From: Utricularia gibba | Taxonomy: Eukaryota > Streptophyta > Magnoliopsida > Lamiales > Lentibulariaceae | Assembly (NCBI GenBank): GCA_002189035.1 | Contig: NEEC01000515.1 | Location: forward strand, 1 to 29,483 | Length of the DNA stretch: 29,483 bases | Direction of reading: 5' to 3' | In this document: one piece after another, positions 1 to 29,483 of the stretch | Numbering within the stretch: position 1 is the stretch's first letter | How the letters are laid out: every line of letters starts with the position of its first letter | Program-made: the position numbers and the translations under genes | The notes under the pieces: generated by a model | What the model saw: the letters and a program-made list of their open reading frames with translations, nothing else | Told to the model about the DNA's origin: nothing | Database searches by the model: none

Positions 1-47
1 CAAATGCAACATTGTATTCATCGATTTGCATCCTTTTGTCCTCATGA

Positions 48-205
48 GCCATAAAGAATCGCGGGCCCGGACCAAGTTCCTAGCGAGACTGGCCGCCACA
101 AAACGAGAAGCTGTTCCTTGAAAAACCATGTAGGCAAACACCGAAAACCGAACGTTAATAAATACATCACTTTCTTTGCCGGGCTACAACTTACTTTGGG
201 CCAAG
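48..205 (+). repeat. Left ~157-bp half-unit of the monomer (example)
   Basis: In the first monomer, landmarks of this half recur in the second half at offsets of 154-160 bases: gccataaag (48) with gcctaagc (206); ccgg (67) with ccgg (224); ccaagt (72) with ccaagt (230); gact..ccgcc (87-97) with gaccgcc (245-251); ttgaaaaa (118) with ttgaaaaa (274); catgt (127) with catgt (284); and aaatacatca (160) with aaatggatca (318). They keep the same order and nearly constant spacing, so the halves look like diverged copies of one ancestral unit. Confidence 0.75.
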
Positions 206-364
206 GCCTAAGCTGATCTTTTTCCGGTTCCAAGTGCACCCAAAGACCGCCTTCTCAAGTATAAAGTAAGTTGTTGAAAAAATCATGTGGGGTGCACGTG
301 ACATCAATAATTTAAACAAATGGATCATTTTTTTTAATCGATTTGCATCCAGTTGACCTCATGA
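206..364 (+). repeat. Right ~157-bp half-unit of the monomer (example)
   Basis: This partner of the half at 48-205 runs over the caaatg junction into the next monomer. The C head form aaatgcatca matches the left-half aaatacatca at 9 of 10 positions, better than the A head (aaatgcaaca) or the B head (aaatggatca), so the C head may be the older state. The segment between ctacaact and gggcc aligns only weakly with atttgcatcc to gagcc. The half length is close to one nucleosome core plus a short linker. Confidence 0.72.
295..300. other. CACGTG palindrome at the end of each monomer (example)
   Basis: The block gtgcacgtga near each monomer end contains CACGTG, the G-box/E-box core bound by bHLH and some bZIP factors. 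I see it in every junction I read, including junctions that have lost neighbouring bases (catgtgtgcacgtg at 24486, gtgggggcacgtg at 3409). On the minus strand it reads GTCACGTG before A-type ends and ATCACGTG before B-type ends. It may be constrained, or simply part of a block that homogenisation has kept uniform; no binding is shown by the sequence. Confidence 0.6.
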
Positions 365-2498
365 GCCATACAGAATCGGGGTCAAGGACCAAGTTCCCAG
401 CGAGACTGGCCGCCACAAAACGAGAAGCGGTTCCTTGAAAAACCATGTAGGCAGCCCCCGAAAACCGAACGATAATAAATACATCACTTATTTGCCGGAC
501 TACAACTACTTTGGGCAAGCCAAACTTACCTTTGTCCGTTCCAGGTGCCCCAAGACCGCCTTCTCAAGTATAAAGTAAGTTGTTGAAAAAATCATGTGGG
601 GTGCACGTGATATCGCAATTTAAACAAATGCAACATTGATTCATCGATTTGCATCCTTTGTCCTCATGAGCCATAAAGAATCGCGGGCCCGGACCAAGTT
701 CCTAGCGAGACTGGCGCCACAAAACGAGAAGCTGTTCCTTGAAAAACCATGTAGGCAACACCGAAAACCGAACGTTAATAAATACATCACTTTCTTTGCC
801 GGGCTACAACTTACTTTGGGCCAAGGCCTAAGCTGACCTTTTTCCGTTTCCAAGTGCCCCAAAGACCGCCTCCTCATGTATAAAGTAAGTTGTTAAAAAA
901 ATCATGTGGGGTGCACGTGACATCATAATTTAAACAAATGGATCATTTTTTTTAATCGATTTGCATCCAGTTGACCTCATGAGCCATACAGAATCGGGGT
1001 CAAGGACCAAGTTCCCAGCGAGACTGGCCGCCACAAAACGAGAAGCGGTTCCTTGAAAAACCATGTAGGCAGCCCCGAAAACCGAACGATAATAAATACA
1101 TCACTTTATTTGCCGACTACAACTAACTCTCGATGCAAGCCAAACCTTACCTTTGTCCGTTCCAGGTGCACCCAAAGACCGCCTGCTCAAGTATAAAGTA
1201 AGTTGTTGAAAAAATCATGTGGGGTGCACGTGATATCGCAATTTAAACAAATGCAACATTGTATTCATCGATTTGCATCCTTTTGTCCTCATGAGCCATA
1301 AAGAATCGCGGGCCCGGACCAAGTTCCTAGCGAGACTGGCCGCCACAAAACGAGAAGCTGTTCCTTGAAAAACCATGTAGGCAACACGAAAACCGAACGT
1401 TAATAAATACATCACTTTCTTTGCCGGGCTACAACTTACTTTGGGCCAAGGCCTAAGCTGATCTTTTTTCCGGTTCCAAGTGCACCCAAAGACCGCCTTC
1501 TCAAGTATAAAGTAAGTTGTTGAAAAAATCATGTGGGGTGCACGTGACATCATAATTTAAACAAATGGATCATTTTTTTTAATCGATTTGCATCCAGTTG
1601 ACCTCATGAGCCATACAGAATCGGGGTCAAGGACCAAGTTCCCAGCGAGACTGGCCGCCACAAAACGAGAAGCGGTTCCTTGAAAAACCATGTAGGCAGC
1701 CCCCGAAAACCGAACGATAATAAATACATCACTTTATTTGCCGGACTACAACTAACTCTCGGCAAGCCAAACCTTACTTTGTCCGTTCCAGGTGCACCCA
1801 AAGACCGCCTTCTCAAGTATAAAGTAAGTTGTTGAAAAAATCATGTGGGGTGCACGTGATATCGCAATTTAAACAAATGCAACATTGTATTCATCGATTT
1901 GCATCCTTTTGTCCTCATGAGCCATAAAGAATCGCGGGCCCGGACCAAGTTCCTAGCGAGACTGGCCGCCACAAAACGAGAAGCTGTTCCTTGAAAAACC
2001 ATGTAGGCAACACCGAAAACCGAACGTTAATAAATACATCACTTTCTTTGCCGGGCTACAACTTACTTTGGGCCAAGGCCTAAGCTGATCTTTTTCCGGT
2101 TCCAAGTGCACCCAAAGACCGCCTTCTCAAGTATAAAGTAAGTTGTTGAAAAAATCATGTGGGGTGCACGTGACATCATAATTTAAACAAATGGATCATT
2201 TTTTTTAATCGATTTGCATCCAGTTGACCTCATGAGCCATACAGAATCGGGGTCAGGACCAAGTTCCCAGCGAGACTGGCCGCCACAAAAACGAGAAGCG
2301 GTTCCTTGAAAAACCATGTAGGCAGCCCCCGAAAACCGAACGATAATAAATACATCACTTTATTTGCCGGACTACAACTTACTTTGGGCAAGGCCTAAGC
2401 TGACCTTTTCCGTTCCAAGTGCCCCAAGACCGCCTCCTCATGTATAAAGTATGTTGTTAAAAAAATCATGTGGGGTGCACGTGATATCGCAATTTAAA

Positions 2499-4372
2499 CA
2501 AATGCACATTGTATTCATCGATTTGCATCCTTTTGTCCTCATGAGCCATAAAGAATCGCGGGCCCGGACCAAGTTCCTAGCGAGACTGGCCGCCACAAAA
2601 CGAGAAGCTGTTCCTTGAAAAACCATGTAGGCAACACCGAAAACCGAACGTTAATAAATACATCACTTTCTTTGCCGGGCTACAACTTACTTTGGGCCAA
2701 GGCCTAAGCTGATCTTTTTCCGGTTCCAAGTGCACCCAAAGACCGCCTTCTCAAGTATAAAGTAAGTTGTTGAAAAAATCATGTGGGGTGCACGTGACAT
2801 CATAATTTAAACAAATGGATCATTTTTTTTAATCGATTTGCATCCAGTTGACCTCATGAGCCATACAGAATCGGGGTCAAGGACCAAGTTCCCAGCGAGA
2901 CTGGCCGCCAAAAACGAGAAGCGGTTCCTTGAAAAACCATGTAGGCAGCCCCGAAAACCGAACGATAATAAATACATCACTTTATTTGCCGGACTACAAC
3001 TTACTTTGGGCCAAGGCCTAAGCTGACCTTTTCCGGTTCCAAGTGCCCCCAAGACCGCCTCCTCAAGTATAAAGTAAGTTGTTAAAAAAATCATGTGGGG
3101 TGCACGTGAATCGTAATTTAAACAAATGCATCATTTTTTTTAATCGATTTGCATCCTTTGTCCTCATGAGCCATAAAGAATCGCGGGCCCGGACCAAGTT
3201 CCTAGCGAGACTGGCCGCCACAAAACGAGAAGCTGTTCCTTGAAAAACCATGTAGGCAACACCGAAAACCGAACGTTAATAAATACATCACTTTCTTTGC
3301 CGGGCTACAACTTACTTTGGGCCAAGGCCTAAGCTGATCTTTTTCCGGTTCCAAGTGCACCCAAAGACCGCCTTCTCAAGTATAAAGTAAGTTGTTGAAA
3401 AAATCATGTGGGGGCACGTGACATCATAATTTAAACAAATGGATCATTTTTTTAATCGATTTGCATCCAGTTGACCTCATGAGCCATACAGAATCGGGGT
3501 CAGGACCAAGTTCCCAGCGAGACTGGCCGCCAAAAACGAGAAGCGGTTCCTTGAAAAACCATGTAGGCAGCCCCCGAAAACCGAACGATAATAAATACAT
3601 CACTTTATTTGCCGACTACAACTTACTTTGGGCCAAGCCTAAGCTGACCTTTTTCCGGTTCCAAGTGCCCCCAAGACCGCCTCCTCATGTATAAAGTATG
3701 TTGTTAAAAAAAATCATGTGGGGTGCACGTGATATCGTAATTTAAACAAATGCATCATTTTTTTTAATCGATTTGCATCCTTTGACCTCATGAGCCATAA
3801 AGAATCGCGGGCCCGGACCAAGTTCCTAGCGAGACTGGCCGCCACAAAACGAGAAGCTGTTCCTTGAAAAACCATGTAGGCAACACCGAAAAACCGAACG
3901 TTAATAAATACACTTTCTTTGCCGGGCTACAACTTACTTTGGGCCAAGGCCTAAGCTGATCTTTTTCCGGTTCCAAGTGCCCCCCAAGACCGCCTCCTCA
4001 TGTATAAAGTATGTTGTTAAAAAATCATGTGGGGTGCACGTGACATCGTAATTTAAACAAATGGATCATTTTTTTTAATCGATTTGCATCCAGTTGACCT
4101 CATGAGCCATACAGAATCGGGGTCAAGGACCAAGTTCCCAGCGAGACTGGCCGCACAAAACGAGAAGCGGTTCCTTGAAAAACCATGTAGGCAGCCCCCG
4201 AAAACCGAACGATAATAAATACATCACTTTATTTGCCGACTACAACTAACTCTCGGTGCAAAGCCAAACCTTACCTTTTTCCGGTTCCAGGTGCACCCAA
4301 AGACCGCCTGCTCAAGTATAAAGTAAGTTGTTGAAAAAATCATGTGGGGTGCACGTGATATCGCAATTTAAA
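2499..4372 (+). repeat. Hexamer A-BC-CA-BC-CA-B, copy 1
   Basis: Monomer starts are 2499, 2812, 3123, 3436, 3747 and 4058. The first has an A head with one a missing (gcacattg), a defect shared with the first monomer of the tetramer at 12674. Monomers 2 and 4 are B bodies with C tails; 3 and 5 are A bodies with gcatcat heads; 6 is a B with gcctgctc and gatatcgc. Monomer 2 ends gtgaatcgta, with the variable base before atcg missing. Monomer 5 lacks about five bases in the aataaata-cac segment near 3908. Total length is 1,874 bp. Confidence 0.75.
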
Positions 4373-4684
4373 CAAATGCAACATTGTATTCATCGATTTG
4401 CATCCTTTGTCCTCATGAGCCATAAAGAATCGCGGGCCCGGACCAAGTTCCTAGCGAGACTGGCCGCCACAAAACGAGAAGCTGTTCCTTGAAAAACCAT
4501 GTAGGCAACACCGAAAACCGAACGTTAATAAATACATCACTTTCTTTGCCGGGCTACAACTTACTTTGGGCCAAGGCCTAAGCTGATCTTTTTCCGGTTC
4601 CAAGTGCACCCAAGACCGCCTCCTCATGTATAAAGTAAGTTGTTAAAAAAATCATGTGGGGTGCACGTGACATCGTAATTTAAA

Positions 4685-4998
4685 CAAATGCATCATTTTT
4701 TTTAATCGATTTGCATCCAGTTGACCTCATGAGCCATACAGAATCGGGGTCAGGACCAAGTTCCCAGCGAGACTGGCCGCCACAAAACGAGAAGCGGTTC
4801 CTTGAAAAAACCATGTAGGCAGCCCCCGAAAACCGAACGATAATAAATACATCACTTTATTTGCCGGACTACAACTTACTTTGGGCCAAGGCCTAAGCTG
4901 ACTTTTTCCGGTTCCAAGTGCCCCCAAGACCGCCTCCTCATGTATAAAGTATGTTGTTAAAAAAATCATGTGGGGTGCACGTGACATCGTAATTTAAA
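4685..4998 (+). repeat. Representative BC monomer (B body, C tail)
   Basis: The body is B (agttgacc, catacag, ggggtcagg, cccagcg, cggttcc, cagcccccg, tttatttgccggac). After ctacaact it switches to acttactttgggccaagg and gcctaagctgac, as in A, then to gtgcccccaag, cctcctcatg, aagtatgttgtta and gacatcgta, which are C-specific. The head is gcatcat. The C tail resembles the A tail more than the B tail, so BC may have arisen by an exchange between B and an A-related copy near ctacaact. Confidence 0.8.
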
Positions 4999-5308
4999 CA
5001 AATGCATCATTTTTTTAAATCGATTTGCATCCATTTGACCTCATGAGCCATAAAGAATCGCGGGCCCGGACCAAGTTCCTAGCGAGACTGGCCGCCACAA
5101 AACGAGAAGCTGTTCCTTGAAAAACCATGTAGGCAGCCCCCGAAAACCGAACGATAATAAATACATCACTTTATTTGCCGGACTACAACTTACTTTGGCA
5201 AGCCAAAGCTTACTTTTCCGTTCCAGGTGCACCCAAAGACCGCCTCTCAAGTATAAAGTAAGTTGTTGAAAAAAATCATGTGGGGTGCACGTGATATCGC
5301 AATTTAAA
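4999..5308 (+). repeat. Chimeric A-to-B monomer
   Basis: The left part matches A at the cataaag, gcgggcccgg, cctagcg and ctgttcc sites; the right part matches B at the cagcccccg, gataataa and tttatttgccggac sites. The switch lies in the shared block ttgaaaaaccatgtaggca, near 5117-5136. Downstream, gcctctcaag lacks the base that distinguishes A (gccttctc), B (gcctgctc) and C (gcctcctc). A clean switch inside a shared block fits recombination, while the missing discordant base fits consensus blending; both may have occurred. Confidence 0.75.
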
Positions 5309-7183
5309 CAAATGCAACATTGTATTCATCGATTTGCATCCTTTTGTCCTCATGAGCCATAAAGAATCGCGGGCCCGGACCAAGTTCCTAGCGAGACTGG
5401 CCGCCACAAAACGAGAAGCTGTTCCTTGAAAAACCATGTAGGCAACACCGAAAACCGAACGTTAATAAATACATCACTTTCTTTGCCGGGCTACAACTTA
5501 CTTTGGGCCAAGGCCTAAGCTGATCTTTTTCCGGTTCCAAGTGCACCCAAAGACCGCCTTCTCAAGTATAAAGTAAGTTGTTGAAAAAATCATGTGGGGT
5601 GCACGTGACATCATAATTTAAACAAATGGATCATTTTTTTAATCGATTTGCATCCAGTTGACCTCATGAGCCATACAGAATCGGGGTCAGGACCAAGTTC
5701 CCAGCGAGACTGGCCGCCACAAAACGAGAAGCGGTTCCTTGAAAAACCATGTAGGCAGCCCCGAAAACCGAACGATAATAAATACATCACTTTATTTGCC
5801 GGACTACAACTTACTTTGGGCCAAGGCCTAAGCTGACCTTTTTCCGGTCCAAGTGCCCCCCAAGACCGCCTCCTCATGTATAAAGTATGTTGTTAAAAAA
5901 ATCATGTGGGGTGCACGTGAATCGTAATTTAAACAAATGCATCATTTTTTTTAATCGATTTGCATCCATTTGACCTCATGAGCCATAAAGAATCGCGGGC
6001 CCGGACCAAGTTCCTAGCGAGACTGGCCGCCACAAAACGAGAAGCTTCCTTGAAAAACCATGTAGGCAACACCGAAAACCGAACGTTAATAAATACATCA
6101 CTTTCTTTGCCGGGCTACAACTTACTTTGGGCCAAGGCCTAAGCTGACTTTTTCCGGTTCCAAGTGCACCCAAAGACCGCCTTCTCAAGTATAAAGTAAG
6201 TTGTTGAAAAAATCATGTGGGGTGCACGTGACATCATAATTTAAACAAATGGATCATTTTTTTTAATCGATTTGCATCCAGTTGACCTCATGAGCCATAC
6301 AGAATCGGGGTCAAGGACCAAGTTCCCAGCGAGACTGGCCGCCACAAAACGAGAAGCGGTTCCTTGAAAAACCATGTAGGCAGCCCCGAAAACCGAACGA
6401 TAATAAATACATCACTTTATTTGCCGGACTACAACTACTTTGGGCAAGGCCTAAGCTGACCTTTTTCCGGTTCCAAGTGCCCCCAAGACCGCCTCCTCAA
6501 GTATAAAGTAAGTTGTTAAAAAAATCATGTGGGGTGCACGTGATATCGCAATTTAAACAAATGCATCATTTTTTTCATCGATTTGCATCCTTTGACCTCA
6601 TGAGCCATAAAGAATCGCGGGCCCGGACCAAGTTCCTAGCGAGACTGGCCGCCACAAAACGAGAAGCTGTTCCTTGAAAAACCATGTAGGCAACACCGAA
6701 AACCGAACGTTAATAAATATATCACTTTCTTTGCCGGGCTACAACTTACTTTGGGCCAAGGCCTAAGCTGACCTTTTTCCGGTTCCAAGTGCCCCCCAAG
6801 ACCGCCTCCTCATGTATAAAGTATGTTGTTAAAAAAATCATGTGGGGTGCACGTGACATCGTAATTTAAACAAATGCATCATTTTTTTTAATCGATTTGC
6901 ATCCAGTTGACCTCATGAGCCATACAGAATCGGGGTCAAGGACCAAGTTCCCAGCGAGACTGGCCGCCACAAAACGAGAAGCGGTTCCTTGAAAAACCAT
7001 GTAGGCAGCCCCGAAAACCGAACGATAATAAATACATCACTTTATTTGCCGACTACAACTAACTCTCGGTGCAAGCCAAACCTTACCTTTGTCCGTTCCA
7101 GGTGCACCCAAAGACCGCCTGCTCAAGTATAAAGTAAGTTGTTGAAAAAATCATGTGGGGTGCACGTGATATCGCAATTTAAA
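5309..7183 (+). repeat. Hexamer A-BC-CA-BC-CA-B, copy 2
   Basis: Monomer starts are 5309, 5623, 5934, 6246, 6558 and 6871; total length is 1,875 bp. Monomer 4 has the mixed tail cctcctcaag with aagtaagttgtta and ends gatatcgc, and monomer 5 begins gcatcat followed by T-tract and catcg; the same pair of features recurs at positions 4 and 5 of the hexamer at 7184. Monomer 5 carries the variant aataaatatatcac near 6711-6724, seen elsewhere only at position 5 of the hexamer at 9887. Position-specific variants shared between copies support a true higher-order unit. Confidence 0.78.
6558..6870 (+). repeat. Representative CA monomer (C head, A body, C tail)
   Basis: The head is gcatcat plus T-tract plus catcg, followed by tttgacctc, a form between A (ttttgtcctc) and B (agttgacctc). 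The body is A (cataaag, gcgggcccgg, cctagcg, ctgttcc, caacaccg, ttctttgccgggc). The tail has gctgacc, gtgccccccaag, cctcctcatg, aagtatgttgtta and gacatcgta. It also carries the aataaatatatcac variant found only at position 5 of two hexamers. Confidence 0.8.
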
Positions 7184-9050
7184 CAAATGCAACATTGTAT
7201 TCATCGATTTGCATCCTTTTGTCCTCATGAGCCATAAAGAATCGCGGGCCCGGACCAAGTTCCTAGCGAGACTGGCCGCCACAAAACGAGAAGCTGTTCC
7301 TTGAAAAACCATGTAGGCAACACCGAAAACCGAACGTTAATAAATACATCACTTTCTTTGCCGGGCTACAACTTACTTTGGGCCAAGGCCTAAGCTGATC
7401 TTTTTCCGGTTCCAAGTGCCCCCCAAGACCGCCTTCTCAAGTATAAAGTAAGTTGTTAAAAAAATCATGTGGGGTGCACGTGACATCATAATTTAAACAA
7501 ATGCATCATTTTTTTTAATCGATTTGCATCCAGTTGACCTCATGAGCCATACAGAATCGGGGTCAGGACCAAGTTCCCAGCGAGACTGGCCGCCACAAAA
7601 CGAGAAGCGGTTCCTTGAAAAACCATGTAGGCAGCCCCGAAAACCGAACGATAATAAATACATCACTTTATTTGCCGGACTACAACTTACTTTGGGCAAG
7701 GCCTAAGCTGACCTTTTTCCGGTCCAAGTGCCCCCAAGACCGCCTCCTCATGTATAAAGTAAGTTGTTAAAAAAATCATGTGGGGTGCACGTGATATCGT
7801 AATTTAAACAAATGCATCATTTTTTTATCGATTTGCATCCTTTGACCTCATGAGCCATAAAGAATCGCGGGCCCGGACCAAGTTCCTAGCGAGACTGGCC
7901 GCCACAAAACGAGAAGCTGTTCCTTGAAAAACCATGTAGGCAACACCGAAAACCGAACGTTAATAAATACATCACTTTCTTTGCCGGGCTACAACTTACT
8001 TTGGGCCAAGGCCTAAGCTGATCTTTTTCCGGTTCCAGTGCACCCAAAGACCGCCTTCTCAAGTATAAAGTAAGTTGTTGAAAAAAATCATGTGGGGTGC
8101 ACGTGACATCATAATTTAAACAAATGGATCATTTTTTTTAATCGATTTGCATCCAGTTGACCTCATGAGCCATACAGAATCGGGGTCAAGGACCAAGTTC
8201 CCAGCGAGACTGGCCGCCACAAAACGAGAAGCGGTTCCTTGAAAAACCATGTAGGCAGCCCCGAAAACCGAACGATAATAAATACATCACTTTATTTGCC
8301 GGACTACAACTACTTTGGGCAAGCCAAGCTGACTTTTTCCGGTTCCAAGTGCCCCCAAGACCGCCTCCTCAAGTATAAAGTAAGTTGTTAAAAAAATCAT
8401 GTGGGGTGCACGTGATATCGCAATTTAAACAAATGCATTTTTTTCATCGATTTGCATCCTTTGACCTCATGAGCCATAAAGAATCGCGGGCCCGGACCAA
8501 GTTCCTAGCGAGACTGGCCGCCACAAAACGAGAAGCTGTTCCTTGAAAAACCATGTAGGCAACACCGAAAACCGAACGTTAATAAATACATCACTTCTTT
8601 GCCGGGCTACAACTTACTTTGGGCCAAGGCCTAAGCTGACCTTTTTCCGGTTCCAAGTGCCCCCAAGACCGCCTCCTCATGTATAAAGTATGTTGTTAAA
8701 AAAAATCATGTGGGGTGCACGTGACATCGTAATTTAAACAAATGCATCATTTTTTTTAATCGATTTGCATCCAGTTGACCTCATGAGCCATACAGAATCG
8801 GGGTCAAGGACCAAGTTCCCAGCGAGACTGGCCGCCACAAAACGAGAAGCGGTTCCTTGAAAAACCATGTAGGCAGCCCCCGAAAACCGAACGATAATAA
8901 ATACATCACTTTATTTGCCGGACTACAACTAACTCTCGGTGCAAGCCAAACTTACTTTGTCCCGTTCCAGTGCACCCAAAGACCGCCTGCTCAAGTATAA
9001 AGTAAGTTGTTGAAAAATCATGTGGGGTGCACGTGATATCGCAATTTAAA
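7184..9050 (+). repeat. Hexamer A-BC-CA-BC-CA-B, copy 3
   Basis: Monomer starts are 7184, 7498, 7809, 8121, 8430 and 8739; total length is 1,867 bp. It follows copy 2 with no trimer between. Monomer 1 has an A body whose tail is part C (gtgccccccaag, aagtaagttgtta). Monomer 5 (8430-8738) has a shortened head, gcat followed directly by the T-tract and catcg. Monomer 6 is a full B with actctcggtgcaagcc, gcctgctc and gatatcgc. Confidence 0.75.
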
Positions 9051-9886
9051 CAAATGCAACATTGTATTCATCGATTTGCATCCTTTGACCTCATGAGCCA
9101 TAAAGAATCGCGGGCCCGGACCAAGTTCCTAGCGAGACTGGCCGCCACAAAACGAGAAGCTGTTCCTTGAAAAACCATGTAGGCAACACCGAAAACCGAA
9201 CGTTAAAAATACATCACTTTCTTTGCCGGGCTACAACTTACTTTGGGCCAAGGCCTAAGCTGACTTTTTCCGGTTCCAAGTGCCCCCAAGACCGCCTCCT
9301 CAAGTATAAAGTAAGTTGTTAAAAAAATCATGTGGGGTGCACGTGACATCATAATTTAAACAAATGCATCATTTTTTTTTAATCGATTTGCATTTTGACC
9401 TCATGAGCCATACAGAATCGGGGTCGAGGACCAAGTTCCCAGCGAGACTGGCCGCCACAAAACGAGAAGCGGTTCCTTGAAAAACCATGTAGGCAGCCCC
9501 CGAAAACCGAACGATAATAAATACATCACTTTATTTGCCGGACTACAACTTACTTTGGGCAAGGCCTAAGCTGACCTTTTTCCCCAAGTGCCCCCAAGAC
9601 CGCCTCCTCATGTATAAAGTATGTTGTTAAAAAATCATGTGGGGTGCACGTGAATCGTAATTTAAACAAATGCATCATTTTTTTAATCGATTTGCATCCA
9701 TTTGACCTCATGAGCCATAAGAATCGGGGCCCGGACCAAGTTCCTAGCGAGACTGGCCGCCACAAACGAGAAGCTGTTCCTTGAAAACCATGTAGGCATA
9801 ATAGGCGGTTCCAAGTGACCGCCTCTCAAGTATAAAGTAAGTTGTTGAAAAAATCATGTGGGGTGCACGTGATATCGCAATTTAAA
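9051..9886 (+). repeat. Trimer A-BC-chimera, copy 2, with truncated last monomer
   Basis: Monomer starts are 9051, 9361 and 9667. The second has a damaged head, gcattttgacc, in place of gcatcc plus agttgacc. The third is only 220 bp long. The unit follows hexamer copy 3 directly, and an equivalent hexamer-trimer pair follows it at 9887-12673. Confidence 0.72.
9667..9886 (+). repeat. Truncated 220-bp monomer, ~93 bp missing
   Basis: The monomer opens with a C head and an A-like body (gaatcggggcccgg, cctagcg, ctgttcc), reaches catgtaggca at about 9789-9798, and then jumps through taatagg to cggttccaagtgaccgcctctcaag-like sequence. The central region with aaaaccgaacg, aataaatacatcac and ctacaact is absent. 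It also shows several one-base losses, such as cacaaacgag and ttgaaaacc. This is the largest internal deletion in the window, and it falls at the last position of a trimer, where other copies are A/B chimeras. It may be a genuine deletion or a failed consensus. Confidence 0.85.
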
Positions 9887-11750
9887 CAAATGCAACATTG
9901 TATTCATCGATTTGCATCCTTTGTCCTCATGAGCCATAAAGAATCGCGGCCCGGACCAAGTTCCTAGCGAGACTGGCCGCCACAAAACGAGAAGCTGTTC
10001 CTTGAAAAACCATGTAGGCAACACCGAAAACCGAACGTTAATAAATACATCACTTTCTTTGCCGGGCTACAACTTACTTTGGGCCAAGGCCTAAGCTGAT
10101 CTTTTTCCGGTTCCAAGTGCCCCAAGACCGCCTCTCAAGTATAAAGTAAGTTGTTGAAAAATCATGTGGGGTGCACGTGACATCGTAATTTAAACAAATG
10201 CATCATTTTTTTAATCGATTTGCATCCAGTTGACCTCATGAGCCATACAGAATCGGGGTCAGGACCAAGTTCCCAGCGAGACTGGCCGCCACAAAACGAG
10301 AAGCGGTTCCTTGAAAAACCATGTAGGCAGCCCCCGAAAACCGAACGATAATAAATACATCACTTTATTTGCCGGACTACAACTTACTTTGGGCAAGGCC
10401 TAAGCTGACCTTTTTCCGGTCCAAGTGCCCCCAAGACCGCCTCCTCATGTATAAAGTATGTTGTTAAAAAATCATGTGGGGTGCACGTGACATCGTAATT
10501 TAAACAAATGCATCATTTTTTTAATCGATTTGCATCCTTTTGACCTCATGAGCCATAAAGAATCGCGGGCCCGGACCAAGTTCCTAGCGAGACTGGCCGC
10601 CACAAAACGAGAAGCTTTCCTTGAAAAACCATGTAGGCAACACCGAAAACCGAACGTTAATAAATACATCACTTTCTTTGCCGGGCTACAACTTACTTTG
10701 GGCCAAGGCCTAAGCTGATCTTTTCCGGTTCCAAGTGCACCCAAAGACCGCCTCTCAAGTATAAAGTAAGTTGTTGAAAAAATCATGTGGGGTGCACGTG
10801 ACATCAAATTTAAACAAATGCATCATTTTTTTAATCGATTTGCATCCAGTTGACCTCATGAGCCATACAGAATCGGGGTCAAGGACCAAGTTCCCAGCGA
10901 GACTGGCCGCCACAAACGAGAAGCGGTTCCTTGAAAAACCATGTAGGCAGCCCCCGAAAACCGAACGATAATAAATACATCACTTTATTTGCCGGACTAC
11001 AACTTACTTTGGGCCAAGGCCTAAGCTGACTTTTTCCGGTTCCAAGTGCCCCCAAGACCGCCTCTCATGTATAAAGTATGTTGTTAAAAAAAATCATGTG
11101 GGGTGCACGTGACATCGTAATTTAAACAAATGCATCATTTTTTTTAATCGATTTGCATCCTTTTGACCTCATGAGCCATAAAGAATCGCGGGCCCGGACC
11201 AAGTTCCTAGCGAGACTGGCCGCCACAAAACGAGAAGCTGTTCCTTGAAAAACCATGTAGGCAACACCGAAAACCGAACGTTAATAAATATATCACTTTC
11301 TTTGCCGGGCTACAACTTACTTTGGGCCAAGGCCTAAGCTGACCTTTTTCCGGTTCCAAGTGCCCCCAAGACCGCCTCCTCAAGTATAAGTATGTTAAAA
11401 AAATCATGTGGGGTGCACGTGACATCGTAATTTAAACAAATGCATCATTTTTTTTAATCGATTTGCATCCAGTTGACCTCATGAGCCATACAGAATCGGG
11501 GTCAAGGACCAAGTTCCCAGCGAGACTGGCCGCCACAAAACGAGAAGCGGTTCCTTGAAAAACCATGTAGGCAGCCCCCGAAAACCGAACGATAATAAAT
11601 ACATCACTTTATTTGCCGGACTACAACTAACTCTCGTGCAAGCCAAACTTACCTTTGTCCCGTTCCAGGTGCACCCAAAGACCGCCTGCTCAAGTATAAA
11701 GTAAGTTGTTGAAAAAATCATGTGGGGTGCACGTGATATCGCAATTTAAA
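9887..11750 (+). repeat. Hexamer A-BC-CA-BC-CA-B, copy 4
   Basis: Monomer starts are 9887, 10195, 10505, 10815, 11127 and 11437; total length is 1,864 bp. Heads of monomers 2 to 6 are all gcatcat type, so the C head is more widespread here than in copies 1 to 3. Monomer 3 ends gacatcaaattt, missing bases at the site that is cat in A and cgt in C. Monomer 5 has aataaatatatcac (11285-11298), shared with monomer 5 of the hexamer at 5309, and a shortened junction tataagtatgttaaaa near 11383. Monomer 6 is B with gcctgctc and gatatcgc. Confidence 0.75.
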
Positions 11751-17363: not shown

Positions 17364-17673
17364 CAAATGGATCATTTTTTTTAATCGATTTGCATCCAGT
17401 TGACCTCATGAGCCATACAGAATCGGGGTCAAGGACCAAGTTCCCAGCGAGACTGGCCGCCACAAAACGAGAAGCGGTTCCTTGAAAAACCATGTAGGCA
17501 GCCCCCGAAAACCGAACGATAATAAATACATCACTTTATTTGCCGGACTACAACTACTTTGGGCAAGCCAAACCTACCTTTTTCCGTTCCAAGTGCCCCC
17601 AAGACCGCCTCCTCAAGTATAAAGTAAGTTGTTTAAAAAATCATGTGGGGTGCACGTGATATCGCAATTTAAA
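17364..17673 (+). repeat. B monomer with intermediate B/C tail
   Basis: The body is B (ggatcat, catacag, cagcccccg) but the tail reads actactttgggcaagcc, aaacctacc, tttttccgttccaagtgcccccaag, cctcctcaag, ttgtttaaaa. That is neither the B tail (actctcggtgcaagcc, tttgtcccgttccaggtgcaccc) nor the C tail, but a shortened mixture of both. It ends gatatcgc. A nearly equivalent copy lies six monomers on, at 19248. Confidence 0.75.
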
Positions 17674-19247: not shown

Positions 19248-19557
19248 CAAATGGATCATTTTTTAATCGATTTGCATCCAGTTGACCTCATGAGCCATAC
19301 AGAATCGGGGTCAAGGACCAAGTTCCCAGCGAGACTGGCCGCCACAAAACGAGAAGCGGTTCCTTGAAAAACCATGTAGGCAGCCCCCGAAAACCGAACG
19401 ATAATAAATACATCACTTTATTTGCCGGACTACAACTAACTTCGGGCAAGCCAAACCTTACCTTTTTCCGTTCCAAGTGCACCCCAAGACCGCCTCCTCA
19501 GTATAAAGTAAGTTGTTGAAAAAATCATGTGGGGTGCACGTGATATCGCAATTTAAA
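19248..19557 (+). repeat. B monomer with intermediate B/C tail, second copy
   Basis: The body is B, with a T-tract of only five. The tail has acttcgggcaagcc, tttttccgttccaagtgcaccccaag and cctcctcagtataaag, where cag lacks the base that separates caag (A/B) from catg (C). It is followed by an A whose head is gcaacat plus T-tract. Its distance from the similar copy at 17364 is 1,884 bp, six monomers. Confidence 0.75.
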
Positions 19558-20188
19558 CAAATGCAACATTTTTTTTCATCGATTTGCATCCTTTTGTCCT
19601 CATGAGCCATAAAGAATCGCGGGCCCGGACCAAGTTCCTAGCGAGACTGGCCGCCACAAAACGAGAAGCTGTTCCTTGAAAAACCATGTAGGCAACACCG
19701 AAAACCGAACGTTAATAAATACATCACTTTCTTTGCCGGGCTACAACTTACTTTGGGCCAAGGCCTAAGCTGATCTTTTTCCGGTTCCAAGTGCACCCAA
19801 AGACCGCCTTCTCAAGTATAAAGTAAGTTGTTGAAAAAATCATGTGGGGTGCACGTGACATCATAATTTAAACAAATGGATCATTTTTTTTAATCGATTT
19901 GCATCCAGTTGACCTCATGAGCCATACAGAATCGGGGTCAAGGACCAAGTTCCCAGCGAGACTGGCCGCCACAAAACGAGAAGCGGTTCCTTGAAAAACC
20001 ATGTAGGCAGCCCCCGAAAACCGAACGATAATAAATACATCACTTTATTTGCCGGACTACAACTAACTCTCGGTGCAAGCCAAACCTTACCTTTGTCCCG
20101 TTCCAGGTGCACCCAAAGACCGCCTGCTCAAGTATAAAGTAAGTTGTTGAAAAAATCATGTGGGGTGCACGTGATATCGCAATTTAAA

Positions 20189-20502
20189 CAAATGCAACAT
20201 TGTATTCATCGATTTGCATCCTTTTGTCCTCATGAGCCATAAAGAATCGCGGGCCCGGACCAAGTTCCTAGCGAGACTGGCCGCCACAAAACGAGAAGCT
20301 GTTCCTTGAAAAACCATGTAGGCAACACCGAAAACCGAACGTTAATAAATACATCACTTTCTTTGCCGGGCTACAACTTACTTTGGGCCAAGGCCTAAGC
20401 TGATCTTTTTCCGGTTCCAAGTGCACCCAAAGACCGCCTTCTCAAGTATAAAGTAAGTTGTTGAAAAAATCATGTGGGGTGCACGTGACATCATAATTTA
20501 AA
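20189..20502 (+). repeat. Representative type A monomer, 314 bp
   Basis: This is a clean A copy. Diagnostic sites in order are gcaacattgtattcatcg, ttttgtcctc, cataaag, gcgggcccgg, cctagcg, ctgttcc, caacaccg, cgttaata, ttctttgccgggc, acttactttgggccaagg, gcctaagctgatc, tttttccggttccaag, gtgcacccaaag, gccttctcaag and gacatcat. The palindrome gggccc is confined to A bodies and absent from B, so it recurs roughly once per dimer in uniform zones. Aggcct occurs in A copies and in C tails. Many other A copies in domain 3 differ from this one at only a few positions. Confidence 0.9.
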
Positions 20503-20817
20503 CAAATGGATCATTTTTTTAATCGATTTGCATCCAGTTGACCTCATGAGCCATACAGAATCGGGGTCAAGGACCAAGTTCCCAGCGAGACTGGCCGCCA
20601 CAAAACGAGAAGCGGTTCCTTGAAAAACCATGTAGGCAGCCCCCGAAAACCGAACGATAATAAATACATCACTTTATTTGCCGGACTACAACTAACTCTC
20701 GGTGCAAGCCAAACCTTACCTTTGTCCCGTTCCAGGTGCACCCAAAGACCGCCTGCTCAAGTATAAAGTAAGTTGTTGAAAAAATCATGTGGGGTGCACG
20801 TGATATCGCAATTTAAA
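20503..20817 (+). repeat. Representative type B monomer, 315 bp
   Basis: This is a clean B copy. Diagnostic sites in order are ggatcat plus T-tract plus aatcg, agttgacctc, catacag, ggggtcaagg, cccagcg, cggttcc, cagcccccg, cgataata, tttatttgccggac, actaactctcggtgcaagcc, aaaccttacctttgtcccg, ttccaggtgcacccaaag, gcctgctcaag and gatatcgc. A and B are identical in the central block from gcgagactggccgcc to aaaacgagaagc and in the end block from aaaaaatcatgtgggg to gcacgtga. Divergence is concentrated in the head and in the segment after ctacaact. Confidence 0.9.
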
Positions 20818-21730
20818 CAAATGCAACATTGTATTCATCGATTTGCATCCTTTTGTCCTCATGAGCCATAAAGAATCGCGGGCCGGACCAAGTTCCTAGC
20901 GAGACTGGCCGCCACAAAACGAGAAGCTGTTCCTTGAAAAACCATGTAGGCAACACCGAAAACCGAACGTTAATAAATACATCACTTTCTTTGCCGGGCT
21001 ACAACTTACTTTGGGCCAAGGCCTAAGCTGATCTTTTTCCGGTTCCAAGTGCACCCAAAGACCGCCTTCTCAAGTATAAAGTAAGTGTTGAAAAAATCAT
21101 GTGGGGTGCACGTGACATCATAATTTAAACAAATGGATCATTTTTTTTAATCGATTTGCATCCAGTTGACCTCATGAGCCATACAGAATCGGGGTCAAGG
21201 ACCAAGTTCCCAGCGAGACTGGCCGCCAAAACGAGAAGCGGTTCCTTGAAAAACCATGTAGGCACCCCGAAAACCGAACGATAATAAATACATCACTTTA
21301 TTTGCCGGACTACAACTTACTTTGGGCAAGCCCTACCTTTTCCGTTCCAAGTGCCCCCAAGACCGCCTCTCAAGTATAAAGTAAGAAAAAATCATGTGGG
21401 GTGCACGTGACATCGTAATTTAAACAAATGATCATTTTTAATCGATTTGCATCCAGTTGACCTCATGAGCCATAAAGAATCGGGGCCCGGACCAAGTTCC
21501 AGCGAGACTGGCCGCCACAAAACGAGAAGCTGTTCCTTGAAAAACCATGTAGGCAACCCGAAAACCGAACGTTAATAAATACATCACTTTCTTTGCCGGG
21601 CTACAACTTACTTTGGGCAAGCCTAAGCTGACCTTTTTCCGGTTCCAAGTGCACCCAAAGACCGCCTTCTCAAGTATAAAGTAAGTTGTTGAAAAAATCA
21701 TGTGGGGTGCACGTGATATCGCAATTTAAA
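20818..21730 (+). repeat. Trimer A-BC-chimera inside the uniform dimer zone
   Basis: Monomer starts are 20818 (A, with gcgggccgg missing one c), 21130 (B body with a badly shortened tail ending gacatcgta, 295 bp) and 21425 (306 bp, A-like body ending gatatcgc). The order matches the trimers of domain 2, more than 8 kb upstream. In the third monomer, ttccagcg lacks the base that is t in A (ttcctagcg) and c in B (ttcccagcg), and aaatgatcat lacks the base that is g in B and c in C. It is the only place in domain 3 where the A-B alternation breaks. Confidence 0.8.
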
Positions 21731-22966
21731 CAAATGCAACATTGTATTCATCGATTTGCATCCTTTTGTCCTCATGAGCCATAAAGAATCGGGCCCGGAC
21801 CAAGTTCCTAGCGAGACTGGCCGCCACAAAACGAGAAGCTGTTCCTTGAAAAACCATGTAGGCAACACCGAAAACCGAACGTTAATAAATACATCACTTT
21901 CTTTGCCGGCTACAACTTACTTTGGGCCAAGGCCTAAGCTGATCTTTTTCCGGTTCCAAGTGCACCCAAAGACCGCCTTCTCAAGTATAAAGTAAGTTGT
22001 TGAAAAAATCATGTGGGGTGCACGTGACATCATAATTTAAACAAATGATCATTTTTTTTAATCGATTTGCATCCAGTTGACCTCATGAGCCATACAGAAT
22101 CGGGGTCAAGGACCAAGTTCCCAGCGAGACTGGCCGCCACAAAACGAGAAGCGGTTCCTTGAAAAACCATGTAGGCAGCCCCCGAAAACCGAACGATAAT
22201 AAATACATCACTTTTTGCCGGACTACAACTAACTTCGGCCAAGCCAAACCTTACCTTTGTCCGTTCCAGGTGCACCCAAAGACCGCCTGCTCAAGTATAA
22301 AGTAAGTTGTTGAAAAAATCATGTGGGGTGCACGTGATATCGCAATTTAAACAAATGCAACATTGTATTCATCGATTTGCATCCTTTTGTCCTCATGAGC
22401 CATAAAGAATCGCGGGCCCGGACCAAGTTCCTAGCGAGACTGGCCGCCACAAAACGAGAAGCTGTTCCTTGAAAAACCATGTAGGCAACACCGAAAACCG
22501 AACGTTAATAAATACATCACTTTCTTTGCCGGGCTACAACTTACTTTGGGCCAAGGCCTAAGCTGATTTTTCCGGTTCCAAGTGCACCCAAAGACCGCCT
22601 TCTCAAGTATAAAGTAAGTTGTTGAAAAAATCATGTGGGGTGCACGTGACATCATAATTTAAACAAATGGATCATTTTTTTAATCGATTTGCATCCAGTT
22701 GACCTCATGAGCCATACAGAATCGGGGTCAAGGACCAAGTTCCCAGCGAGACTGGCCGCCACAAAACGAGAAGCGGTTCCTTGAAAAACCATGTAGGCAG
22801 CCCCCGAAAACCGAACGATAATAAATACATCACTTTATTTGCCGGACTACAACTAACCAAGCCAAACCTTACCTTTTTCCGTTCCAAGTGCACCCAAAGA
22901 CCGCCTCTCAGTATAAAGTAAGTTGTTAAAAAATCATGTGGGGTGCACGTGATATCGCAATTTAAA

Positions 22967-23262
22967 CAAATGATTTGCATCCTTTTGTCCTCATGAGCCA
23001 TAAAGAATCGCGGGCCCGGACCAAGTTCCTAGCGAGACTGGCCGCCACAAAACGAGAAGCTGTTCCTTGAAAAACCATGTAGGCAACACGAAAACCGAAC
23101 GTTAATAAATACATCACTTTCTTTGCCGGGCTACAACTTACTTTGGGCCAAGGCCTAAGCTGATCTTTTTCCGGTTCCAAGTGCACCCAAAGACCGCCTT
23201 CTCAAGTATAAAGTAAGTTGTTGAAAAAATCATGTGGGGTGCACGTGACATCATAATTTAAA
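22967..23262 (+). repeat. A monomer with deleted head, 296 bp
   Basis: The start caaatg is followed at once by atttgcatcc: the head gcaacattgtattcatcg is almost entirely missing, about 17 bases. The rest is a regular A with aacacgaaaacc. The deletion lies between two short atg/gat-like matches, so replication slippage is possible. The preceding B (22664-22966) is also shortened and blended, so this whole region may be poorly resolved. Confidence 0.85.
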
Positions 23263-24511
23263 CAAATGGATCATTTTTTTTAATCGATTTGCATCCAGTT
23301 GACCTCATGAGCCATACAGAATCGGGGTCAAGGACCAAGTTCCCAGCGAGACTGGCCGCCACAAAACGAGAAGCGGTTCCTTGAAAAACCATGTAGGCAG
23401 CCCCCGAAAACCGAACGATAATAAATACATCACTTTATTTGCCGGACTACAACTAACTCTCGGTGCAAGCCAAACCTTACCTTTGTCCCGTTCCAGTGCA
23501 CCCAAAGACCGCCTGCTCAAGTATAAAGTAAGTTGTTAAAAAATCATGTGGGGTGCACGTGATATCGCAATTTAAACAAATGCAACATTGTATTCATCGA
23601 TTTGCATCCTTTGTCCTCATGAGCCATAAAGAATCGCGGGCCCGGACCAAGTTCCTAGCGAGACTGGCCGCCACAAAACGAGAAGCTGTTCCTTGAAAAA
23701 CCATGTAGGCAACACCGAAAACCGAACGTTAATAAATACATCACTTTCTTTGCCGGGCTACAACTTACTTTGGGCCAAGGCCTAAGCTGATCTTTTTCCG
23801 GTTCCAAGTGCACCCAAAGACCGCCTTCTCAAGTATAAAGTAAGTTGTTGAAAAAATCATGTGGGGTGCACGTGACATCATAATTTAAACAAATGGATCA
23901 TTTTTTTTAATCGATTTGCATCCAGTTGACCTCATGAGCCATACAGAATCGGGGTCAAGGACCAAGTTCCCAGCGAGACTGGCCGCCACAAAACGAGAAG
24001 CGGTTCCTTGAAAAACCATGTAGGCAGCCCCCGAAAACCGAACGATAATAAATACATCACTTTATTTGCCGGACTACAACTAACTCTCGGTGCAAGCCAA
24101 ACCTTACCTTTGTCCCGTTCCAGGTGCACCCAAAGACCGCCCTCAAGTATAAAGTAAGTTGAAAAAATCATGTGGGGTGCACGTGATATCGCAATTTAAA
24201 CAAATGCAACATTGTATTCATCGATTTGCATCCTTTTGTCCTCATGAGCCATAAAGAATCGCGGGCCCGGACCAAGTTCCTAGCGAGACTGGCCGCCACA
24301 AAACGAGAAGCTGTTCCTTGAAAAACCATGTAGGCAACACCGAAAACCGAAACGTTAATAAATACATCACTTTCTTTGCCGGGCTACAACTTACTTTGGG
24401 CCAAGGCCTAAGCTGATCTTTTTCCGGTTCCAAGTGCACCCAAAGACCGCCTTCTCAAGTATAAAGTAAGTTGTTGAAAAAATCATGTGTGCACGTGACA
24501 TCATAATTAAA

Positions 24512-24812
24512 CAAATGGATCATTTTTTTTAATCGATTTGCATCCAGTTGACCTCATGAGCCATACAGAAGGTCGACCAAGTTCCCAGCGAGACTGGCCG
24601 CCACAAACGAGAAGCGGTTCCTTGAAAAACCATGTAGGCAGCCCCCGAAAACCGAACGATAATAAATACATCACTTTATTTGCCGGACTACAACTAACAT
24701 GCAAGCCAAACCTTACCTTTGTCCGTTCCAGTGCACCCAAAGACCGCCTGCTCAAGTATAAAGTAAGTTGTTGAAAAAATCATGTGGGGTGCACGTGATA
24801 TCGCAATTTAAA
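24512..24812 (+). repeat. Shortened B monomer, 301 bp
   Basis: The body has acagaaggtcgaccaag in place of acagaatcggggtcaaggaccaag, a loss of about seven bases in the segment where A and B differ most. Other losses are cacaaacgag, aacatgcaagcc (for actctcggtgcaagcc) and gtccgttccagtgcaccc. The junction before it is also damaged: catgtgtgcacgtg and aattaaac at 24484-24513, which breaks both the gggg run and the tttaaa site. Confidence 0.85.
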
Positions 24813-26993
24813 CAAATGCAACATTGTATTCATCGATTTGCATCCTTTTGTCCTCATGAGCCATAAAGAATCGCGGGCCCGGACCAAGTTCCTAGCGAGA
24901 CTGGCCGCCACAAAACGAGAAGCTGTTCCTTGAAAAACCATGTAGGCAACACCGAAAACCGAACGTTAATAAATACATCACTTTCTTTGCCGGGCTACAA
25001 CTTACTTTGGGCCAAGGCCTAAGCTGATCTTTTTCCGGTTCCAAGTGCACCCAAAGACCGCCTTCTCAGTATAAAGTAAGTTGTTGAAAAAATCATGTGG
25101 GGTGCACGTGACATCATAATTTAAACAAATGGATCATTTTTTTAATCGATTTGCATCCAGTTGACCTCATGAGCCATACAGAATCGGGTCAAGGACCAAG
25201 TTCCCAGCGAGACTGGCCGCCACAAAACGAGAAGCGGTTCCTTGAAAAACCATGTAGGCAGCCCCCGAAAACCGAACGATAATAAATACATCACTTTATT
25301 TGCCGGACTACAACTAACTCTCGGGCAAGCCAAACCTACCTTTTTTCCGTTCCAGGTGCCCCAAGACCGCCTCTCAAGTATAAAGTAAGTTGTTGAAAAA
25401 ATCATGTGGGTGCACGTGATATCGCAATTTAAACAAATGCAACATCATCGATTTGCATCCTTTTGTCCTCATGAGCCATAAAGAATCGCGGGCCCGGACC
25501 AAGTTCCTAGCGAGACTGGCCGCCACAAAACGAGAAGCTGTTCCTTGAAAAACCATGTAGGCAACACGAAAACCGAACGTTAATAAATACATCACTTTCT
25601 TTGCCGGGCTACAACTTACTTTGGGCCAAGGCCTAAGCTGATCTTTTTCCGGTTCCAAGTGCACCCAAAGACCGCCTTCTCAAGTATAAAGTAAGTTGTT
25701 GAAAAAATCATGTGGGTGCACGTGACATCATAATTTAAACAAATGGATCATTTTTTTAATCGATTTGCATCCAGTTGACCTCATGAGCCATACAGAATCG
25801 GGGTCAAGGACCAAGTTCCCAGCGAGACTGGCCGCCACAAAACGAGAAGCGGTTCCTTGAAAAACCATGTAGGCAGCCCCGAAAACCGAACGATAATAAA
25901 TACATCACTTTATTTGCCGGACTACAACTAACTCTCGGTGCAAGCCAAACCTTACCTTTGTCCCGTTCCAGGTGCACCCAAAGACCGCCTGCTCAAGTAT
26001 AAAGTAAGTTGTTGAAAAAATCATGTGGGGTGCACGTGATATCGCAATTTAAACAAATGCAACATTGTATTCATCGATTTGCATCCTTTTGTCCTCATGA
26101 GCCATAAAGAATCGCGGGCCCGGACCAAGTTCCTAGCGAGACTGGCCGCCACAAAACGAGAAGCTGTTCCTGAAAAACCATGTAGGCAACACGAAAACCG
26201 AACGTTAATAAATACATCACTTTCTTTGCCGGGCTACAACTTACTTTGGGCCAAGGCCTAAGCTGATCTTTTTCCGGTTCCAAGTGCACCCAAAGACCGC
26301 CTTCTCAAGTATAAAGTAAGTTGTTTGAAAAAATCATGTGGGGTGCACGTGACATCATAATTTAAACAAATGGATCATTTTTTTTAATCGATTTGCATCC
26401 AGTTGACCTCATGAGCCATACAATCGGGGTCAAGGACCAAGTTCCCAGCGAGACTGGCCGCCACAAAACGAGAAGCGGTTCCTTGAAAAACCATGTAGGC
26501 AGCCCCCGAAAACCGAACGATAATAAATACATCACTTTATTTGCCGGACTACAACTAACTCTCGGTGCAAGCCAAACCTTACCTTTGTCCCGTTCCAGGT
26601 GCACCCAAAGACCGCCTCCTCAAGTATAAAGTAAGTTGTTGAAAAAATCATGTGGGGTGCACGTGATATCGCAATTTAAACAAATGCAACATTGTATTCA
26701 TCGATTTGCATCCTTTTGTCCTCATGAGCCATAAAGAATCGCGGGCCCGGACCAAGTTCCTAGCGAGACTGGCCGCCACAAAACGAGAAGCTGTTCCTTG
26801 AAAAACCATGTAGCAACACCGAAAACCGAACGTTAATAAATACATCACTTTCTTTGCCGGGCTACAACTTACTTTGGGCCAAGGCCTAAGCTGATCTTTT
26901 TCCGGTTCCAAGTGCACCCAAAGACCGCCTTCTCAAGTATAAAGTAAGTTGTTGAAAAAATCATGTGGGGTGCACGTGACATCATAATTTAAA

Positions 26994-27287
26994 CAAATGG
27001 ATCATTTTTTTTAATCGATTTGCATCCAGTTGACCTCATGAGCCATACAGAATCGGGTCAAGGACCAAGTTCCCAGCGAGACTGGCCGCCACAAAACGAG
27101 AAGCGGTTCCTTGAAAAACCATGTAGGCAGCCCCGAAAACCGAACGATAATAAATACATCACTTTATTTGCCGGACTACAACTAACGCAAGCCAAACCTT
27201 ACCTTTTTCCGTTCCAAGTGCCCCCAAGACCGCCTCCTCAATAAAGTTGAAAAAATCATGTGGGTGCACGTGATATCGCAATTTAAA
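26994..27287 (+). repeat. Shortened B monomer, 294 bp
   Basis: The tail reads aacgcaagcc, tttttccgttccaagtgcccccaag and cctcctcaataaagttgaaaa, missing several bases of actctcggtgcaagcc and most of caagtataaagtaagttgttg. It also has catgtgggtgcacgtg, with one g fewer. The mixture of B and C tail features matches the copies at 17364 and 19248. It lies six monomers after another blended B (25126-25433). Confidence 0.82.
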
Positions 27288-29170
27288 CAAATGCAACATT
27301 GTATTCATCGATTTGCATCCTTTTGTCCTCATGAGCCATAAAGAATCGCGGGCCCGGACCAAGTTCCTAGCGAGACTGGCCGCCACAAAACGAGAAGCTG
27401 TTCCTTGAAAAACCATGTAGGCAACACCGAAAACCGAACGTTAATAAATACATCACTTTCTTTGCCGGGCTACAACTTACTTTGGGCCAAGGCCTAAGCT
27501 GATCTTTTTCCGGTTCCAAGTGCACCCAAAGACCGCCTTCTCAAGTATAAAGTAAGTTGTTGAAAAAATCATGTGGGGTGCACGTGACATCATAATTTAA
27601 ACAAATGATCATTTTTTTTTAATCGATTTGCATCCAGTTGACCTCATGAGCCATACAGAATCGGGTCAAGGACCAAGTTCCCAGCGAGACTGGCCGCCAC
27701 AAAACGAGAAGCGGTTCCTTGAAAAACCATGTAGGCAGCCCCCGAAAACCGAACGATAATAAATACATCACTTTATTTGCCGGACTACAACTAACTCTCG
27801 GTGCAAGCCAAACCTTACCTTTGTCCCGTTCCAGGTGCACCCAAAGACCGCCTGCTCAAGTATAAAGTAAGTTGTTGAAAAAATCATGTGGGGTGCACGT
27901 GATATCGCAATTTAAACAAATGCAACATTGTATTCATCGATTTGCATCCTTTTGTCCTCATGAGCCATAAAGAATCGCGGGCCCGGACCAAGTTCCTAGC
28001 GAGACTGGCCGCCACAAAACGAGAAGCTGTTCCTTGAAAAACCATGTAGGCAACACGAAAACCGAACGTTAATAAATACATCACTTTCTTTGCCGGGCTA
28101 CAACTTACTTTGGGCCAAGGCCTAAGCTGATCTTTTTCCGGTTCCAAGTGCACCCAAAGACCGCCTCTCAAGTATAAAGTAAGTTGTTGAAAAAATCATG
28201 TGGGGTGCACGTGACATCATAATTTAAACAAATGGATCATTTTTTTTAATCGATTTGCATCCAGTTGACCTCATGAGCCATACAGAATCGGGGTCAAGGA
28301 CCAAGTTCCCAGCGAGACTGGCCGCCACAAAACGAGAAGCGGTTCCTTGAAAACCATGTAGGCAGCCCCCGAAAACCGAACGATAATAAATACATCACTT
28401 TATTTGCCGGACTACAACTAACTCTCGGCAAGCCAAACCTTACCTTTGTCCCGTTCCAGGTGCACCCAAAGACCGCCTGCTCAAGTATAAAGTAAGTTGT
28501 TGAAAAAATCATGTGGGGTGCACGTGATATCGCAATTTAAACAAATGCAACATTGTATTCATCGATTTGCATCCTTTTGTCCTCATGAGCCATAAAGAAT
28601 CGCGGGCCCGGACCAAGTTCCTAGCGAGACTGGCCGCCACAAAACGAGAAGCTGTTCCTTGAAAAACCATGTAGGCAACACCGAAAACCGAACGTTAATA
28701 AATACATCACTTTCTTTGCCGGGCTACAACTTACTTTGGGCCAAGGCCTAAGCTGATCTTTTTCCGGTTCCAAGTGCACCCAAAGACCGCCTTCTCAAGT
28801 ATAAAGTAAGTTGTTGAAAAAATCATGTGGGGTGCACGTGACATCATAATTTAAACAAATGGATCATTTTTTTTAATCGATTTGCATCCAGTTGACCTCA
28901 TGAGCCATACAGAATCGGGGTCAAGGACCAAGTTCCCAGCGAGACTGGCCGCCACAAAACGAGAAGCGGTTCCTTGAAAAACCATGTAGGCAGCCCCCGA
29001 AAACCGAACGATAATAAATACATCACTTTATTTGCCGGACTACAACTAACTCTCGTGCAAGCCAAACCTTACCTTTGTCCCGTTCCAGGTGCACCCAAAG
29101 ACCGCCTGCTCAAGTATAAAGTAAGTTGTTGAAAAAATCATGTGGGGTGCACGTGATATCGCAATTTAAA

Positions 29171-29482
29171 CAAATGCAACATTGTATTCATCGATTTGCA
29201 TCCTTTTGTCCTCATGAGCCATAAAGAATCGCGGGCCCGGACCAAGTTCCTAGCGAGACTGGCCGCCACAAAACGAGAAGCTGTTCCTTGAAAAACCATG
29301 TAGGCAACACCGAAAACCGAACGTTAATAAATACATCACTTTCTTTGCCGGGCTACAACTTACTTTGGGCCAAGGCCTAAGCTGATCTTTTTCCGGTTCC
29401 AAGTGCACCCAAAGACCGCCTTCTCAAGTATAAAGTAAGTTGTTGAAAAATCATGTGGGTGCACGTGACATCATAATTTAAA
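29171..29482 (+). repeat. Final type A monomer, unpaired at the window edge
   Basis: This is a regular A of 312 bp with gcctaagctgatc, gccttctc and gacatcat. Small losses are gttgaaaaatcatg and catgtgggtgcacgtg. The following base, 29483, is the c that would open the next monomer, expected to be a B. The array therefore continues, or the contig is cut, exactly at a monomer junction. Confidence 0.92.
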
Positions 29483-29483
29483 C

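Follow-up and report, generated by a model that had tools for sequence, protein, structure and literature searches.

We studied the satellite array that makes up contig NEEC01000515.1 of Utricularia gibba (C33 of the 516 contigs, 100,091,633 bp in all, of assembly GCA_002189035.1) and the one-base losses that recur among its copies. The window, that is, the whole stretch analysed, is 29,483 bp long; a tandem repeat search gave a period of 314 bp, and 94 cut sites delimit 93 whole monomers plus two end pieces. The copies lie head to tail and in high number, the two properties by which tandem satellite DNA is recognised. Over 44 polymorphic columns of the whole window, copies two places apart agree at 0.817 and adjacent copies at only 0.255, and the repeat unit is therefore an A-B dimer of ~628 bp. 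There is also a third form, C, whose tail is partly A-like and partly carries alleles of its own. The array and the shortened strings found in it are the following:

1..29483, + strand: tandem array of the 314-bp satellite, the whole contig (tandem repeat search, monomer cuts)
1..15469, + strand: dimers rich in C tails, with mixed forms (copy tables)
15470..29483, + strand: largely regular A-B dimers (~628 bp) with hybrid B/C tails scattered among them (column agreement, tail list)
5242..5251, + strand: gcctctcaag, lacking the t/g/c base of the three-allele column (string search); further copies at 9821, 10130, 10750, 21365, 25369 and 28163
11060, 12303 and 13542, + strand: gcctctcatg, base of the three-allele column lost (string search)
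3106..3113, + strand: gtgaatcg, c/t base lost (string search); also at 5917 and 9650
15166..15175, + strand: aaatgatcat, g/c base lost (string search); also at 18620, 21426, 22043 and 27603
19497..19508, + strand: ctcagtataaag, a/t base lost (string search); also at 22907 and 25065
21497..21504, + strand: ttccagcg, t/c base lost (string search), in an odd monomer at 21415-21720

A preliminary description of this DNA had pointed to losses of these kinds, and all the shortened strings that it cited are present in the window within a few bases of the places given. Our string search found them at seven additional places, namely gcctctcaag at 25369 and 28163, gcctctcatg at its three positions, and ctcagtataaag at 22907 and 25065. 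The intact forms of the three-allele column number 37 for gccttctcaag, 21 for gcctgctcaag, seven for gcctcctcaag and 15 for gcctcctcatg. The string ttccagcg occurs once in the window, and the odd monomer that holds it is flanked by B and A copies and sits at a register slip. Between 15470 and 29483, many dimer copies share all their bases at the polymorphic columns.

The same description held that the losses fall where A, B and C differ. We counted single gaps in cells whose majority base lies outside runs, and losses at diagnostic columns exceeded chance: 43 of 1,564 diagnostic cells in the window had one, as against 6 of 8,740 cells at columns neither diagnostic nor adjacent to a diagnostic one; in seven other contigs the figures were 110/3,315 and 17/18,525. 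The window counts pool 92 of the 93 whole monomers, leaving out a truncated 220-bp monomer and the two end pieces. The other contigs, a subset of those bearing the satellite, were sampled as stretches (seven, then five more, 12 in total); from stretch L010 28 of 29 monomers were pooled, and ten pieces of C7 and eight of C10 that lay outside 250-340 bp were excluded. This part of the claim stood, but most A/B columns of the window are spared. At eight A/B columns in the monomer's front half, no single gap occurred among 728 cells whose neighbours were of like type, as against one among eight at type switches, which rules out that every A/B/C column is affected there. Sparing is incomplete outside the window, as the seven other contigs gave 28/1,440 and 10/110 at the same columns.

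The losses fall mainly at columns where copies of the same dimer phase disagree. For this comparison we took 13 columns readable by their exact flanks, assigned the phase from the front block of each monomer, and ranked the contig-by-phase groups with at least five readable copies by minor-allele share; two copies with a tied assignment were counted as B phase, here as well as in the linked-allele and 27-bp analyses described below. In the window, 26 of 491 bases were lost in groups with a share of at least 0.1 and only two of 667 in groups below it. The eight contigs together gave 94/1,493 against 35/2,067, and the seven others alone 68/1,002 against 33/1,400, the low-share losses there being due in part to the way in which the front block set the phase. 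When gaps were counted at 16 columns, with stratification by column, the polymorphic groups of the eight contigs held 75 single gaps where 51.6 were expected. Moreover, five further contigs gave 35/644 against 31/1,606 with columns s68 and s96 excluded; these two, which were kept in the 13-column figures, lie near the phase-call block and are thus nearly fixed by construction.

The A and C tails have a 27-bp string in common, so that the same letters could be followed in both phases. In the window, the A phase showed 44 exact and no shortened forms, while the B phase, with B and C tails in competition, showed six exact and nine shortened by deletion alone; shortened forms were scored as subsequences, so a B/C hybrid may pass as a pure deletion, and copies with no C-type tail (two of 46 in A, 31 of 46 in B) were excluded. 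In six other dimer contigs the A phase had 66 exact and seven shortened forms and the B phase 19 of each, with 15 B-phase copies classed as other left out. Stretch L008 (G000:C94:10001-20000) was kept out of the comparison as a non-dimer array, with 24 exact forms, three shortened, three other and one copy without a C-type tail. Taken as it stands, the contrast between phases at a constant string indicates that loss follows the bases of the other copies and not the local sequence.

Of the ten copies in the window that lack the three-allele base, five are in each phase, and they stand on several backgrounds, the linked next site being t in three, a in six and lost in one. Across the assembly this column is lost in 587 copies and intact in 6,618, a share of about 8%. 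In the window, B-phase tails of hybrid B/C type carry on average 3.56 gap events (n = 16), pure B tails 2.38 (n = 21) and pure C tails 2.22 (n = 9), means that include some fixed length differences between the types.

We then compared consensus procedures on simulated reads with long-read-like errors, at assumed error rates. Under a likelihood consensus, three equal alleles led to the base being dropped in one of three error models, and the likelihood margin against deletion put the sites in an order roughly matching the observed losses (Spearman 0.54, 0.70 and 0.85; p = 0.09, 0.02 and 0.0008). Under a majority pileup whose alignment was indel-friendly, the base disappeared in 0.33 to 0.67 of trials when the alleles had equal shares and in 0.92 with three alleles, compared with 0 to 0.08 for pure input; these are rough figures, from 12 trials per point. 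A control that had no polymorphic column was left intact 36 times out of 36.

Together, these results lead us to read most of the recurrent one-base losses as consensus artefacts, with a probability of roughly 0.75, judging from the assembled sequence. Noisy long reads from differing satellite copies would have been merged into an average; at positions where copies of one register held different bases, an indel-friendly alignment would yield no majority base and the position would be omitted. The mixed reads may stem from other arrays, from other copies within the C33 array, or from the two homologues. Since the mixing would be mostly within one dimer register, most A/B columns of the window were spared. 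As a majority pileup drops bases and a likelihood consensus of two alleles does not, the assembler of C33 probably built its consensus by majority or through a graph, during read correction or layout. Polishing tools may skip ambiguously mapped reads, and polishing may accordingly have left the satellite unrepaired. One paper states that HGAP was used for the U. gibba PacBio assembly (PMC5793159). In another assembler, Canu, the accessible text describes falcon_sense correction with Myers O(ND) read alignment and the choice of the heaviest graph path (PMC5411767), and a graph step of this type can, by analogy, be the kind in which a base is lost; that part of the paper gave no description we could see of base loss of the C33 kind.

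The blended consensus that the preliminary description proposed thus stands in part. In the window the losses track disagreement among copies and are found on more than one background; they are seen again on other contigs, and the majority-pileup simulation reproduces them. But it is disagreement within one dimer phase that counts, and one of the deletions, gggtcaggacc, looks inherited. Several observations weigh against the artefact reading. The contrast between disagreeing and agreeing columns is weaker in the other contigs than in the window, and in the seven others the bin of lowest polymorphism (29/973) loses bases like the 0.10-0.25 bin (12/483). Columns s52 (0/76 lost), s305 (1/179) and s293 (3/219) are hardly touched despite being polymorphic, and the majority pileup predicts losses at s52 and s293. 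In contig C17, four of 15 B-phase copies lack the three-allele base and the other 11 all carry g, an outcome counter to the expectation that we had set beforehand for contigs with one allele; in C8, s68 is lost in five of 63 copies while being nearly fixed. Both exceptions fit blending only if reads of other arrays were mixed in. The likelihood consensus retained one allele in every two-allele mix (11 sites, three error models), leaving it unsupported as the cause for such mixes. Among invariant runs, those of four bases are shortened in 31 of 545 cases, a genuine departure from the otherwise low background. We also tried C8, taken to hold a single allele at the three-allele column; none of its 22 callable copies had lost the base, a weak result given that 78 of its 100 B-phase copies were uncallable.

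The averaging could have been confined to the two homologues of a single array instead of a pool of many arrays, a special case of the artefact reading that we consider possible but would not favour. Collapse of homologues would leave marks identical to those of pooling, and our analyses do not separate the two. The losses peak at the three-allele column and occur where the local contig has one allele (C17), so a wider pool fits them at least as well. We looked for a second assembled copy of the C33 array by means of two odd junctions, and each pattern had a single match, in the window.

If the losses were instead real deletion alleles, mutation would have produced them, and unequal crossing-over and gene conversion would have carried them from copy to copy, an explanation that we regard as unlikely for most of them. 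Two further features of the window are the following:

2250..2260, + strand: gggtcaggacc, one-base deletion tied to C tails (string search); further copies at 3497, 4747, 5684, 7560, 10256 and 13049
9657..9876, + strand: truncated 220-bp monomer at a dimer register slip (monomer cuts, junction search)

The deletion in gggtcaggacc is present in seven of the ten readable B-phase copies of the window that have a C tail and in none of the 33 that lack one, while in other contigs the counts are 2/35 and 0/67. Being tied to one tail type, it was probably inherited. Identical losses also recur on many contigs, some occur with no other visible allele nearby, as in C17, and hybrid monomers at register slips are the expected residue of out-of-register crossing-over. 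Real alleles leave unexplained the far higher loss at within-phase variable columns of the window, the sparing of an identical string in one phase, and the presence of one loss on several backgrounds in both phases. As regards the 220-bp monomer, its junction had no other match in the assembly at up to three mismatches. Together with the monomer at 26984-27277 it shows larger internal losses, and the junctions of both match only themselves assembly-wide.

Plain run-length or indel noise, as expected of an unpolished assembly whose copies were not mixed, is very unlikely as the general cause. Contraction of a run from one type could yield four of the five cited losses, gtgaatcg being the only one for which this is impossible, and the contracted four-base runs also speak for such noise. 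It is disfavoured nonetheless, because invariant two-base runs are contracted in only nine of 1,940 cases and invariant single bases lost in 11 of 10,494 (three-base runs, 1/554; five-base runs, 2/283), because an invariant GG is contracted 21 times and intact 5,728 times across the assembly, a level of about 0.4%, and because the two-phase comparison keeps the string constant. Lastly, it is highly improbable that the losses are real products of B/C heteroduplexes formed during homogenisation of the array, with repair excising the mismatched base and choosing neither allele, in which case exchange between copies would wear away its own diagnostic columns.

The satellite extends well beyond the window. 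An exact 25-mer taken from it has 5,728 matches across the assembly, from which we estimate a total of roughly 1.8 Mb or more, on small contigs. Among the matches listed, in contig order, the first is on C7, so that none of those listed lies on C1 to C4 (3.8 to 8.5 Mb), contigs that begin with CCCTAAA repeats. The available part of one report says that the putative centromeres of U. gibba lack satellite repeats (PMC8333044), beside which, as far as that text goes, an abundant 314-bp satellite in this species is odd. The contig gave nothing in Rfam at gathering scores, and no plasmid record was matched by the window. Of 16 contigs whose lengths were inspected, five measure an exact multiple of 2,500 bp (8,500,000; 6,192,500; 3,452,500; 2,492,500; and 267,500 bp), which suggests cuts at processing chunks.

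The repeat resembles plant satellites with a dimeric higher-order unit in its ~314-bp head-to-tail monomers, its A-B dimers, its thousands of copies and the hybrid monomers at register slips in the C33 array. With repeats that noisy long-read assemblies have averaged or collapsed it shares losses at differing columns, hybrid copies and small contigs of pure repeat, whereas here the effect was traced through the dimer phase from the assembly alone. In the literature searched, outside which most subscription papers lay, we noticed neither an account of the C33 satellite nor one of base loss in a blended consensus.

Two of the sampled arrays stand out. L008 is a distinct recombinant satellite array that lacks A-B alternation, in which 24 of 31 monomers are B-type at the front and A-type at the rear, the switch falling mostly between alignment columns 96 and 128. 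In L038 (G000:C10:1-10000) the median cut-to-cut monomer is 274.5 bp, compared with ~310 bp elsewhere, and eight of 34 monomers fall outside 250-340 bp; it is either a degenerate array or a heavily compressed consensus. Apart from the satellite, two HSP70 genes (G000:C451 near 3343871-3343898 and G000:C496 near 433378-433408) are each matched in two overlapping pieces that lie in differing frames, as derived by hand. A one-base frameshift would leave such a pattern, and either the genes are true pseudogenes or the unique sequence contains errors here.

The satellite itself is real, its dimer and C form probably are too, together with some variants such as gggtcaggacc, and the losses in C33 are probably an assembly artefact. 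Since averaged copies explain the losses best, the finest variants of C33 are not to be read as biology. More generally, the fine variants, hybrid copies and short monomers of a satellite can be created by averaging in noisy long-read assemblies. A comparison of loss rates at within-phase variable and fixed columns, with the identical string of the other phase as a control, offers a test of assembled satellites that needs no reads, and studies of recombination or age in such arrays should mask the affected columns.

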